DNA of 64,000 nucleotides from Sphingobacteriaceae bacterium. GTDB lineage: Bacteria > Bacteroidota > Bacteroidia > Sphingobacteriales > Sphingobacteriaceae. Under the pieces are notes generated by a model. That model was given only the letters and a program-made list of their open reading frames with translations, searched no databases and was not told the origin of the DNA. The translations under genes and the position numbers were made by a program. The stretch covers positions 124,001-188,000 of the forward strand of contig CAHJWG010000003.1 of NCBI GenBank assembly GCA_903642215.1, read 5' to 3'. This document shows, in pieces, positions 39,590 through 64,000 of this stretch (position 1 is the stretch's first letter; the number at the start of each line of letters is the position of its first letter).

Positions 39590-39623
39590 ATAAGGTAAAA
39601 GAAGCATGCTTCTTTTACCTTAT
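39590..39623. repeat. Perfect 34-bp palindrome made of two 12-mers
   Basis: Two opposed copies of the dispersed word (39596-39607 and 39606-39617) overlap by two bases. With their flanks they form a palindrome without mismatch or spacer. It lies between the convergent QCxFCG copy 3 gene and the His-heptad lipoprotein gene, where it could also serve as a bidirectional terminator. A one-mismatch copy follows at 39670. Confidence 0.9.
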
Positions 39624-58305: not shown

Positions 58306-59013
58306 TTAGTTTGAGTCGCTGGAAGATGTGTCGTTCGAGTCAGAAGTTTGCTCCTCAAGGTCTTGCCTGGCCGACCGGATATCCTCAGCGGTGTATTGGT
58401 AATGTGAATCAAAAGTTTTGGTTTGTCGGTTGTAAATCAGCACATGTTTACCTGATTTCGTTTGTAATATCAAGCCGTTGCTTGAAGCGGGAACCAACTC
58501 CTTCTTTTCCATGTAAATTAGTTCTCCCTTTGAAAAACGCTTGATAGTTGGTAGCTCACCATCTATCCCCTTCCAGTAAATGATATTTCCCTTTTCTGTG
58601 ATGATCCAGATAGCACTACTGGAATAATCTCGTTTTTCCAGCAAAAATGCCATTTCCTTATCCTTATTCCCGGTAAAATCCCCGTACGCTATCACCTTCC
58701 TTGCGCGGTCCTTGATTTTGGTGAAAAAATATTCATTGGTCGAAAAATATTTATTGTCTATTAAAATTTTAACTATTGCACGTTGAAACGGCAAGGGGAT
58801 GCCGTTATACTCAGGAATGGTAAATGTTGCATTTTTCCAATAATTGTATTCTTGCTCGCTTGCCCATCCGTTTACACTGACACTATCGGTTTGTTGCGCA
58901 GTCGTAGCTGCAAGAACGACTGCCTTTCGTGCCCTGTAGGTTCCCAATTTATAACCTAAGACGGCTGATATCAGCATGCCGATGGCAGTTAATAAAATAT
59001 ATTTAATCTTCAT
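58306..59013 (-). CDS. Hypothetical membrane-anchored protein, ~235 aa
   Basis: I start it at the ATG at 59011-59013, giving MKIKYILLTAIGMLISAVLGYKLG, a single N-terminal helix. A longer frame to 59097 would run into an operator-like palindrome. The soluble part (EYNYWKNATFTIPEYNGIPLPFQ, VIAYGDFTGNKDKEMAFLLEKRD, SSAIWIITEKGNIIYWKG) resembles beta-propeller or lectin-like repeats with calcium-type DFTGNKD. C-terminus is Ser/Asp rich. A TACTTTTA box and a palindrome lie upstream, so it may be under the TetR regulator at 59945. Confidence 0.6.
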   Translation of the reverse strand: MKIKYILLTAIGMLISAVLGYKLGTYRARKAVVLAATTAQQTDSVSVNGWASEQEYNYWKNATFTIPEYNGIPLPFQRAIVKILIDNKYFSTNEYFFTKIKDRARKVIAYGDFTGNKDKEMAFLLEKRDYSSSAIWIITEKGNIIYWKGIDGELPTIKRFSKGELIYMEKKELVPASSNGLILQTKSGKHVLIYNRQTKTFDSHYQYTAEDIRSARQDLEEQTSDSNDTSSSDSN

Positions 59014-59090
59014 TTGCTTTATTACGGTATCATTTACATGAGAGTCAGCCTTTAATTTATCTCCTTCGACAGTAAAAGTAGCAATTAAAT

Positions 59091-59110
59091 ATATCACCTA
59101 CGTGAGATAT
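59091..59110. promoter_or_regulatory. Candidate TetR operator 1
   Basis: ATATCACCTACGTGAGATAT lies in the middle of a longer palindrome (arms 59082-59095 and 59106-59119, 14 bp each, perfect). It shares ATATCAC and GATAT ends, and the same 20-base length, with the site at 60636. It is upstream of the 58306-59013 gene. Confidence 0.5.
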
Positions 59111-59425
59111 ATTTAATTGTCTATAGCTACGAGTTATAATTATCCGTATGGAAACGAGTGGGACCTGTTGCACTAATAGCCGGTCATAGATATCAGTGAA
59201 TAGTCGATACATTGTTTTTATTATCTTTATTCACAAATAACGTGAGGAATAGCCGTGTTGATGTAGGTAAAGGTTAGCATATTTGGCTGATTCACTACTT
59301 TACGCTCCAGAAACCCATAAAGTTATAAGCAAGTATTGTCAAAAGTTGTTATGAACGCTTTGATCGGTCATAATTAGCTGTTATGCCAAGCTTGCCAGCC
59401 TAACCTTGATAACATCTATCAACCT
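59111..59425. other. Intergenic stretch, ~315 bases
   Basis: No gene or strong structure recognised beyond the right arm of the palindrome at 59106-59119. Confidence 0.5.
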
Positions 59426-59668
59426 TCAATTTCTCTGAGTGTTTGCGCATTCAAAGTGCCGCAACCTGGCATGCCATTCAATGAGTAATATGGATTGATC
59501 GTTTCCTACATTACGGGAAAGTCGTATAATTTGCTCTTCTGAATTAACCACTTCTACGTTACAAAAAATGATGGTCATGACATTTTCCGTAGGCTCTTCC
59601 ATCTTTGCCAGATCAATGATCTGGAATACCTTCCCGTTGCTCTTCCGTATGATCTTCAACTTACCCAT
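59426..59668 (-). CDS. Hypothetical protein, 80 aa
   Basis: Reads KLKIIRKSNGKVFQIIDLAK near the start and VGNDQSILLIEWHARLRHFE near the end. It looks like a small alpha/beta protein but I recognise no family. No clear promoter. Could be real or chance. Confidence 0.35.
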   Translation of the reverse strand: MGKLKIIRKSNGKVFQIIDLAKMEEPTENVMTIIFCNVEVVNSEEQIIRLSRNVGNDQSILLIEWHARLRHFECANTQRN

Positions 59669-59944
59669 TACTGCCCTAACTGTGCCTTCAACTTTGTTAT
59701 AATTGCCTAAGAAGTAAAATTCGGCTGTGACTGCGCCTGTAAAATGTCAACATTTGAGAATACATAATCCTGTTCCAGATCGACTAGCTAAGATAAAAGT
59801 ACCAGATCAACAGGTGTTTTGTTGCCGTTGGCCATATTTTGCCATGATCCGCTGCATTGATTTTCTGAGAATATGAAATAAAAGACGCCCGAATGCCTTT
59901 GATGCTAAGAAATATGGATGCAAATTGCAGCAAAGTTAGTTTAG

Positions 59945-60577
59945 ATGGCAAGGAAAATTACTGATGGTCCGGTTAGGAACAAGGAACGTACGAAAGCGAA
60001 TTTGATAACAGCGCTTGGAAAAATACTTAAAAAGAATGGCTTCTCGGGTCTTAGTGCCCGAAGCGTTGCGGATGAAGCTAAAGTTGACAGGCGACTGATC
60101 TACGATTATTTCGGTGGTCTTGAAGGGCTTGTGCGGGAATATTTGAATAACAAAGATTACTGGAATATAAAATCAGATGATGTTAATGGCCTTATTGAAA
60201 ATGCCAGGGAAGATGCGGGAAAAACACTTGCTTACAAAGTATTGGAAGAGCAGTTCAACAGCCTGATAGGCAATGAAGAAATGCGCCGCATCATCACCTG
60301 GGGACTAAGTGAGAAATTGCCTGTTTTAAAGGAACTTGATCTGAAGCGGGAGAACATTGGTGAACTGGTATTAAGTGAAGTTATGGAAAAGCATTTCGCC
60401 CATAGTGATAAAAATTTCCGGGCAATGTATGCTATTATGATGGGCGGTGTATACTATCTTACTTTACATGCTAAAATGCAGGAAAACACTTTTTGTGGGA
60501 TAAACATTCAACAGGCGGAAGGACAGGAAGAGATCAAAAAAGCGCTCAGGCAGTTCTTAGAACTTATCTACACCTAA
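59945..60577 (+). CDS. TetR/AcrR-family regulator of the accessory region
   Basis: 210 aa. Helix-turn-helix at residues ~15-60 (NLITALGKILKKNGFSGLSARSVADEAKVDRRLIYDYFGGLEGLV). The remaining helices form the ligand/dimer domain. Two similar 20-bp palindromes, at 59091 and 60636, lie in promoter positions on either side of this gene and are its likely targets. Different from the 17.8 kb TetR protein. Confidence 0.88.
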   Translation: MARKITDGPVRNKERTKANLITALGKILKKNGFSGLSARSVADEAKVDRRLIYDYFGGLEGLVREYLNNKDYWNIKSDDVNGLIENAREDAGKTLAYKVLEEQFNSLIGNEEMRRIITWGLSEKLPVLKELDLKRENIGELVLSEVMEKHFAHSDKNFRAMYAIMMGGVYYLTLHAKMQENTFCGINIQQAEGQEEIKKALRQFLELIYT

Positions 60578-60635
60578 ACGGCGGCGGTTGATGCGTATTT
60601 AAGTAAACCCCATAGCTGAAATATTTCCATTAATT

Positions 60636-60667
60636 ATATCACACATATGTGATATTTGTTAGCTTTG
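60636..60667 (+). promoter_or_regulatory. Candidate TetR operator 2 and promoter
   Basis: ATATCACACATATGTGATAT (60636-60655) has perfect ATATCACA/TGTGATAT arms. The -7 box TAGCTTTG (60660-60667) follows at once, so binding would block the promoter of the 60696 gene. Confidence 0.55.
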
Positions 60668-60695
60668 TATGTTTGCTATATAGAGTTTCGTGAAG

Positions 60696-60947
60696 ATGTT
60701 ATATTGGTGCTGCCTATTATTATTTATTAGTGTTGTTGCAATTTTCGGATTTAAATATCTAGTAAATGAAAAGGCAGCAGTAAATAATTTACCACAAAAT
60801 TTTGAGCATTACCAATCACTAGATAGTTTAAAAGTGATTAAATCCGGAAAAGTGTCAATGACACGGTTGCTGGAAAGCACAGAGGATATAGGTTTAGCAA
60901 GCGTGCAAGATTATGCATATCGGAACGGTAAGCCATGTAAACCCTGA
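60696..60947 (+). CDS. Small membrane-anchored hypothetical protein, possibly truncated
   Basis: 83 aa from the ATG at 60696. One N-terminal helix (LYWCCLLLFISVVAIFGFKYL), then a short soluble part. The last ~110 bases overlap the tail of the opposite-strand HEPN gene, and the final residues (VQDYAYRNGKPCKP) look like shadow coding of it. The promoter and operator upstream suggest a real 5' end whose 3' end was lost in a deletion. Confidence 0.45.
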   Translation: MLYWCCLLLFISVVAIFGFKYLVNEKAAVNNLPQNFEHYQSLDSLKVIKSGKVSMTRLLESTEDIGLASVQDYAYRNGKPCKP

Positions 60948-61530
60948 TTATAGCTATACATGCCTGCTCCATACATTGGTGTAATTCAAACATGCAATTG
61001 CTATAAAACCCGTTATCATAAGAAGTGCTTGCCGATTCCATGAAGCCACAAGCCATCCCGAACCTATGGAAGTAATGCTTTTGCGCTTTTGCAAACGTTA
61101 TAGCGGGATTTAGATTGGGATAGTCCAAAATCAGCCGTAAGCCGCTGGCCGAATATAGTTGCATCCCATCTCGGCATGCGCTGCAAAAAAAGCGGCTACC
61201 CTGTGACACTGCATCGGTAGCTGTTTGCAGTCCATGCACAATTATTGAAATGGTAAAGTCTTTAGATAGGCTATTTACATGATCGTGAACCTCATGTTCG
61301 ATACGAGTTACCTGCGTTGTTAGCATTAGCAGAAAATAATGGGTTTTACGAGCAATGAAGCAATATGTAAAGCAACCAATAGATTTATAATGCTCGTCTG
61401 AGCAGCCGAAACAGAAAATGTATTCTACCTCATACTTCGCGACCAGTGAGGTAATGATTTCTTTCAGCTCTAAGTACTGTGCGCTTGATAAATTGAACGT
61501 GGTCTTTTCCATAACGTTATTGCCCTTCAT
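60838..61530 (-). CDS. Nucleotidyltransferase-like/HEPN protein, truncated
   Basis: 230 aa. The first ~130 residues resemble the N-terminal part of Bacteroidota MNT-HEPN fusion proteins but lack a clear GS-x-D catalytic motif (VEYIFCFGCSDEHYKS in its place). The HEPN domain begins near 165: HYFHRFGMACGFMESASTSY, then CMFELHQCMEQACIAIIRVYMAYRSDMHNLARLL. It stops after NLYPLCFPATVSL, where relatives continue with another ~60 residues. A start at the second Met, six codons in, would avoid overlap with the upstream gene. Whole proteins of this kind are thought to act in toxin-antitoxin-like or defence roles; this one is probably impaired. Confidence 0.65.
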   Translation of the reverse strand: MKGNNVMEKTTFNLSSAQYLELKEIITSLVAKYEVEYIFCFGCSDEHYKSIGCFTYCFIARKTHYFLLMLTTQVTRIEHEVHDHVNSLSKDFTISIIVHGLQTATDAVSQGSRFFCSACRDGMQLYSASGLRLILDYPNLNPAITFAKAQKHYFHRFGMACGFMESASTSYDNGFYSNCMFELHQCMEQACIAIIRVYMAYRSDMHNLARLLNLYPLCFPATVSLTLFRI

Positions 61531-63183: not shown

Positions 63184-64000
63184 TTATCTGCCCTGCCCGC
63201 GGTATTGTTCCTCGTCCTGCCCTTGGCCTTTCTTTTTCTTTTTTTTGCCAGGAAAGTCCGGCTCTGCCTGTATGTTGCCGAGCATTTCTTCCAGCAACTC
63301 CATTCCGCCGGTTATCACTGCTTTCAGGGTGCTGTCTTCTCCTGCTACAGAATCATCATAGCTAACCTGAATATGTTCCGGAATGGTTGGCTGCTTGTTG
63401 TCCTGATTTTCTTTCATGGCTTCCCTGATCTGGTCGGCCAGCGATCTTAATTGCATCTTTGGTTGTGATTGTTGCTCTTTTTCACCCTGTGCCTGCTGCT
63501 CTTTCATTTTTTCTTGAATGGCGGCAATAAGCCTACTATAACTTAAACTGCGGTCTATTTCCGAACCTTTAAATTTGTAGCCGTCCTTGCTGAAACTGAT
63601 GCCCTGAACCTCTTTAGTGCCGCTTTTAAACTTGTACTGAATCTCAATGCCTCTGCGCTTCAGCACTATCTTCAATTCATCCATGCTACTGACCTGGCAA
63701 CTTGCGAACTTGATCGCATCGAACAGTTCGTACTTCACTTTGTCCTCGCCCTTGAGCTGCTGCCTGTTTACCTTTTCCTTGTCCGGCGCGATATAGAAGC
63801 CATACTTCAAGGTCAGTTCCCTGCAAACTTTGATATTGTTCTGCCGCTGGAAGCGGTCAGATATGGTCTTGCCCTGATTATCTACCCGGTTATAGACTAA
63901 ATGCAGGTGGGGGTGGTTCTTATCATGGTGTCTGACCATTAACACCTGCGTGTCCTGTACCTTCATTTTTTGCAAGTAAGCTCTGGCAACCTCAACCATA
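63184..64000 (-). CDS. Relaxase (mobilisation protein), partial at right edge
   Basis: The visible 271 residues are the C-terminal part; the start lies beyond the window. The relaxase motif III is at the edge: RHHDKNHPHLHLVYNRVD, with the H-P-H-x-H metal ligands. An AT-rich linker follows, then Gln/Glu-rich coil segments (EKMKEQQAQGEKEQQSQ) and a basic end (KKKKKKGQGQDEEQY). This is a PF03432-type relaxase, of the MobB kind found on Bacteroidota mobilisable or conjugative elements. It nicks at oriT and pilots the strand. The nicking Tyr should lie in the missing N-terminus. Confidence 0.88.
   Translation of the reverse strand, partial: MVEVARAYLQKMKVQDTQVLMVRHHDKNHPHLHLVYNRVDNQGKTISDRFQRQNNIKVCRELTLKYGFYIAPDKEKVNRQQLKGEDKVKYELFDAIKFASCQVSSMDELKIVLKRRGIEIQYKFKSGTKEVQGISFSKDGYKFKGSEIDRSLSYSRLIAAIQEKMKEQQAQGEKEQQSQPKMQLRSLADQIREAMKENQDNKQPTIPEHIQVSYDDSVAGEDSTLKAVITGGMELLEEMLGNIQAEPDFPGKKKKKKGQGQDEEQYRGQGR

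Follow-up and report, generated by a model that had tools for sequence, protein, structure and literature searches.

TetR-family local repressors that bind palindromic operators beside divergent genes are described in PMC3511530 and PMC4482099, and they serve as the comparison for the locus presented below. The likeness lies in a regulator with a TetR_N domain, in a near-palindromic 20-bp site, and in the placement of that site, in relatives, within the promoter of the regulator or its neighbour. The locus differs from them in that its regulator gene carries no site of its own, and in that no ligand or efflux gene is known there. Similarity of the regulator to the RefZ (NF037937) and BetI (TIGR03384) models is confined to the DNA-binding region, with scores far under the cut-offs (26.9 against 180 bits and 18.9 against 201.3 bits, respectively). 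Among the titles listed for TetR operators in Bacteroidetes, Pedobacter and Mucilaginibacter and for ATATCAC palindromes, there is no paper on this regulator.

Here we describe two related palindromes, sites A and B, that lie 1.5 kb apart on either side of a TetR-family gene in the genome of a Sphingobacteriaceae bacterium related to Pedobacter. They fall within a stretch of 64,000 nucleotides, referred to as the window. The overall reading that we favour, and hold to be quite likely, is that the palindromes are operators of the local TetR-family repressor. The features of the locus are as follows.

58306 to 59013, minus strand: P0002, the leftward gene (235 aa, intact, hydrophobic N-terminus), the putative target of site A.
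59082 to 59119, no strand assigned: site A, an operator-like extended inverted repeat, CAATTAAATATATC-N10-GATATATTTAATTG, with the core ATATCACCTACGTGAGATAT at 59091 to 59110.
59426 to 59900, minus strand: remnant (C-terminal part) of an F52-type gene upstream of the TetR gene; an 80-aa ORF at 59426 to 59668 is its C-terminal end.
59945 to 60577, plus strand: TetR-family regulator (210 aa, intact ORF, PF00440 TetR_N), here called the 59945 protein.
60636 to 60655, no strand assigned: site B, ATATCACACATATGTGATAT, a 20-base canonical putative operator.
60660 to 60667, plus strand: candidate -7 box TAGCTTTG, 4 bp past site B.
60668 to 60675, plus strand: candidate -7 box TATGTTTG, 12 bp past site B, a spacing that fits the relatives better.
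60690 to 60890, plus strand: remnant of an F14-type membrane-protein gene (codons 1 to 67); beyond these the ORF continues through unrelated sequence as far as 60947.
60838 to 61530, minus strand: HEPN-domain gene of the neighbouring segment, its 3' end cut at the F14 junction.

A preliminary description of this DNA had reported matching palindromes around a TetR gene, and both were found where it placed them, with the cores starting at 59091 and 60636 and the regulator ORF between them. It had set the first within a 38-base palindrome upstream of a leftward gene, as is the case: perfect 14-bp arms surround a 10-base centre at site A, and P0002 lies 77 bp downstream. Site B begins 58 bp past the end of the TetR gene and forms nine of its ten pairs, with one mismatched. 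The two sites match in the sense that they are related, follow the same pattern and are rare genome-wide; they are not identical, the arm being GAGATAT in site A and GTGATAT in site B. In the 3.84-Mb genome the pattern ATATCAC-N6-GTGATAT has one exact match (site B), one match at one mismatch (site A) and ten at two mismatches, whereas a reversed control pattern has four matches at up to two mismatches. Because the pattern was derived from sites A and B, this own-genome count is by itself post hoc, which does not apply to the tests in other genomes. Elsewhere in the window, a palindrome scan found its longest perfect arms at 39590 to 39623, where ATAAGGTAAAAGAAGCATGCTTCTTTTACCTTAT forms a perfect 34-bp palindrome of 17-bp arms with no loop.

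The 59945 protein matches PF00440 TetR_N at E 3.5e-07 (30.3 bits, cut-off 24). Its 210 aa fit the TetR family, and its PDB profile matches include NalD over residues 13 to 156. A search of its own genome gave a single match at E<=0.001 and no further TetR of this family. Homologs at E<=1e-20 occur in 232 of 399 family genomes, the closest being 83% identical, and the operator was found only with the closest ones. Orthologs in a 15-row alignment are 65 to 82% identical to the 59945 protein, and the named ortholog loci belong to Pedobacter and Mucilaginibacter. Relatives on Chryseobacterium glaciei plasmids are 53.8% identical and have different annotated neighbours; the two stretches taken from this species hold no site at up to two mismatches.

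To follow the palindromes outside the window, TetR homologs were sought in the 399 family genomes, and the stretches around 30 of them were brought to a common orientation. A site at no more than one mismatch lies within 350 bp upstream of 10 of the 18 orthologs at 69% identity or more, seven of the sites being exact and three having one mismatch. The remaining eight of these orthologs have no such site in that interval. When centres of 2 to 12 bp were tried, the orthologs' upstream site was found at the 6-bp centre only. The same upstream sequences gave at most zero loci with 209 permuted arms, one with 800 random arms and zero in 300 dinucleotide shufflings. Homologs at 68% identity or less have no site within 350 bp upstream (0/3 at 65-68% and 0/8 at 61% or less, together 0/11, the truncated copy L134 being left out). 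Among these more distant homologs, L127 and L129 lack an upstream site even though their recognition helix retains Arg at position 50. Presence is nearly all-or-none: the best upstream match in siteless loci has four to six mismatches, save L124 with two and L132 with three. In L072 and L110 the site precedes an operon that contains the TetR gene, and in L116 it lies downstream of that gene. The upstream DNA of L113 spans only about 211 bp, and L108, L118, L121 and L122 have no site at one mismatch or fewer in the 18 kb taken.

A second search yielded 22 named loci, many of which coincide with those above; 10 of the 22 have a site at up to one mismatch within 350 bp upstream. Pedobacter namyangjuensis and P. 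agri, which are outside the first set, have exact sites at -186. Ungapped comparison of 12 upstream sites (66 pairs) gives 96% identity for the 14 arm bases, 57% for the centre and 34% for the 70-bp flanks, and the 12 loci form five groups without alignable flanks. Because the arms are conserved against such flanks, the site sequence looks held by selection and not by regional ancestry alone. The 18 genomes with a close ortholog contain 14 exact occurrences of the pattern, spread over 12 of them, and none of the reversed pattern. Of these occurrences, 11 are at most about 9 kb away from the TetR ortholog; the other three, two in genome G110 and one in G315, are far from it. Where it is found, the circuit is mostly local, with one or two sites per genome. 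Across Pedobacter and Mucilaginibacter the palindrome stands upstream of the regulator gene, of divergent genes for small membrane proteins or lipoproteins, and of complete genes related to the rightward ORF. On comparative sequence grounds, ATATCAC-N6-GTGATAT is a phylogenetic footprint of the 59945 TetR lineage. Several genomes (G163, G060, G147, G014 and, twice, G135) contain a related palindrome of 19 bp whose centre is 5 bp long, ATATCACAAATTGTGATAT or the complement of this; it is possibly a site for a different regulator.

The sites also hold a regular position relative to promoter elements. TAnnTTTG is the sigma-A -7 box consensus of Flavobacterium psychrophilum (PMC9723704). Such a box starts 12 to 14 bp past the site in 12 of 56 arms (28 distinct sites, the window's arm included), against a mean of 0.16 and a maximum of 3 in mononucleotide shuffles. 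The -33 element, TTTG, lies about 19 bp above the -7 box. In 7 of the 12 boxed arms the last bases of the palindrome's centre are TTT, followed by G, which puts a -33 TTTG at about that spacing. A protein on the site would cover the -33 region, the layout expected of a repressor site. The second palindrome had been said to touch a -7 box; in fact TAGCTTTG begins beyond the end of site B, with a 4-bp step, and TATGTTTG is the better spaced of the two candidates. The candidate -33 tetramer upstream of TATGTTTG, at the spacing of the relatives, is TATG and not TTTG. A promoter scan with E. coli-type boxes gave two hits in the region, one of them leftward over site B, against 7.9 in shuffles, and was set aside.

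Three other accounts of the palindromes have to be weighed against this geometry. They could be RNA hairpins, either terminators or mRNA-stability elements, and in keeping with this both fold better than shuffles (z -6.7 and -6.1 on the two strands of site A, -2.8 and -2.7 for site B) and site B follows closely on the TetR gene. We reject this account as very improbable: no terminator-like site was found within 58800 to 61000, the -7 boxes of relatives keep a fixed distance from the palindrome, and column counts show the 14 arm bases to be nearly fixed in sequence, beyond what pairing alone would need. The palindrome is moreover found in G110 before a gene far from TetR: 67 bp separate an exact site there from the F14 gene that follows, and the TetR gene is about 254 kb away. 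That separation, like the distant site in G315 and the close orthologs without a nearby site, is what might be expected if the sites belonged to another regulator common to these neighbourhoods. We find that quite improbable, given that most exact sites adjoin TetR while the other neighbours differ between loci; TetR is also the commonest gene directly beside the examined sites (14 site arms against 6 for each of the next two families), a count biased by the choice of most loci for holding TetR. It is improbable, too, that the 59945 protein acts through these sites as an activator. The TATG tetramer of the window would be in line with activation, as the site B promoter may be weak unaided. The distance to the -7 box, however, puts the site over the -33 element and not upstream of it, and most of the studied members of the family repress (PMC3511530).

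The ownership of site A is a more delicate matter. P0002 finds no match in Pfam, NCBIfam or PADLOC, and its predicted structure is poor (mean pLDDT 44.3). Mucilaginibacter sp. Bleaf8 encodes a homolog 85% identical to it, divergent from a TetR paralog that is 65% identical to the 59945 protein. Between these two Bleaf8 genes lies the counterpart of site A, ATATATCGCTTATGTGAGATATAT, with the same GAGATAT arm. DNA similarity to the Bleaf8 locus covers P0002 and stops at 59116, within the right arm of site A; the DNA flanking the two sites is 78% identical over about 216 bp. At position 50 of its recognition helix the Bleaf8 paralog carries Lys, as against Arg in the aligned homologs at 66% identity or more, and the closer Bleaf8 TetR (83%) has a canonical site. 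Weaker relatives of P0002 in G164 and G086 have no site nearby at up to two mismatches. It is therefore possible, though we think it unlikely, that site B alone is the operator of the 59945 protein and that site A was inherited with P0002 from a locus of the divergent TetR paralog and now binds a regulator weakly, if at all. Against this, site A is only one mismatch from the canonical form, three close orthologs likewise have one-mismatch sites, and the genome search found no other member of this TetR family. The GAGATAT arm also precedes an F14 gene in G148, whose TetR (70% identical) has a canonical site, and this speaks for site A being usable by the 59945 lineage. The recurrence of the variant arm at the site of a TetR paralog and before one F14 gene makes the owner of site A less certain. 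Site A probably serves the 59945 lineage as an operator, though it may originally have been that of a paralog since lost; the 59945 protein could plausibly control P0002.

Site B can be assigned more firmly. The rightward gene of the preliminary description is a 5' fragment, its first 67-68 codons matching the starts of F14 genes, whose full length is about 365 aa (found in 4 of the other 150 genomes searched). Five of the seven F14 genes outside the window have a palindrome at up to one mismatch upstream (exact in G153, G110 and G193; one mismatch in G177 and G148). The other two, in G220, with little upstream DNA, and in G168, have no site nearby at up to two mismatches. No Pfam, NCBIfam or PADLOC model matches the full-length F14 relative of G153, and the structure predicted for an F14 protein is poor (mean pLDDT 35.4). 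From the truncation together with the palindromes before full-length F14 genes, it follows that site B is probably an F14 operator left before a gene stump. It is very probably an operator of the 59945 TetR lineage.

The F14 and HEPN homologies meet at about 60873-60893, where both genes, on opposite strands, are cut. Leaving out its match to itself, the listed alignments of the HEPN protein stop at residues 214-226 of the 230 in the query. For the ten best homologs the open frames span 297-369 aa, and one of these contains a stop. A simple insertion splitting the F14 gene gained no support: the C-terminal part of F14 has no match in the genome's own assembly, which is 92% complete. At this junction, too, the regulon remnant gives way to a segment carrying a MobA/VirD2-type relaxase (63184-63999).

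The TetR gene bears marks of disruption of its own. No canonical site lies within 350 bp upstream of it, the best match having five mismatches. The DNA that it has in common with the starts of other TetR genes begins only at -27. The place of its upstream region is taken by the F52 gene remnant, of which 59449-59900 is 75% identical in DNA to part of a 268-aa F52 gene in G193. It seems that the TetR gene and its own operator were separated by a rearrangement. Judged from its sequence, the locus reads as a mosaic of P0002 with site A, the F52 remnant, a TetR gene lacking its own site, and site B with the F14 stump.

The favoured reading, that of operators for a local TetR-family repressor, can be cast as a mechanism. 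We infer a circuit in which a TetR dimer would bind ATATCAC-N6-GTGATAT where it overlaps the -33 region of Bacteroidota-type promoters, the direction of control being negative. The bound protein would block transcription of the adjacent membrane-protein and lipoprotein genes, and some ligand would release it from the operator. In the window, the exact site B still stands before promoter-like sequence, there driving a gene fragment only, and site A with its variant arm stands before the intact P0002. The preliminary description had predicted a three-gene regulon under the 59945 regulator. A regulon in kind is what the data suggest, though one made up of no more than a single intact gene, a fragment and perhaps the regulator itself, which lacks a site. 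As to its controller, the palindrome does go with this TetR lineage in relatives, while the closest counterpart of site A adjoins a TetR paralog.

Neighbouring genes in relatives bear on what such circuits might serve. Family F8 occurs in 5 of 31 loci and not in the window, lying up to 5 kb upstream of TetR in G153, G298, G177 and G122 and about 5.5 kb downstream in G142. The F8 copy of G153, the one scanned, matches NF047539 XAC2610_fam at E 6.6e-21. XAC2610 confers immunity to an effector that degrades peptidoglycan (PMC7400221 and PMC7286519); PMC10933484 is a further source on XAC2610. Proteins of this type belong to the Xanthomonas T4SS, and an orphan immunity islet has been proposed in Salmonella Typhi (PMC7400221). 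The likeness to XAC2610-type systems comes through F8 in the relatives' loci, whereas the window's targets, P0002 and F14, match no family, and no immunity family was recognised among them. Anti-phage defence was rejected after no PADLOC match was found among the 8 proteins scanned. About 3 kb from a TetR homolog in Pedobacter sp. KBW06, an exact palindrome (L166, 7037) lies 138 bp ahead of the gene for a grasp-with-spasm ATP-grasp peptide maturase (TIGR04192). The F8 genes and the KBW06 maturase are hints of interbacterial conflict and not evidence for the window genes. Downstream of the TetR operon in G153 (L072, 14075-18001) are a C39-peptidase/VKOR/thioredoxin-type protein and a bacteriocin-type peptidase-ABC exporter. 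One could imagine a TetR-operator cassette that travels among Sphingobacteriaceae islands with swappable cargo (lipoproteins, XAC2610-like immunity, bacteriocin-type exporters, a grasp-with-spasm maturase). One repressor specificity would then run a swappable repertoire of interbacterial defence, and operators would drift with the recognition helix. We offer this as speculation that is rather unlikely to be right.

Apart from its implications for the family, the circuit would be an ordinary local repressor circuit, partly decayed in the window genome. No paper on this TetR lineage is among the titles listed, and the palindromes supply it with a testable operator. The case shows that footprinting is a way to check a palindrome picked out by eye, and it offers a handle on several unnamed families of membrane proteins and lipoproteins.
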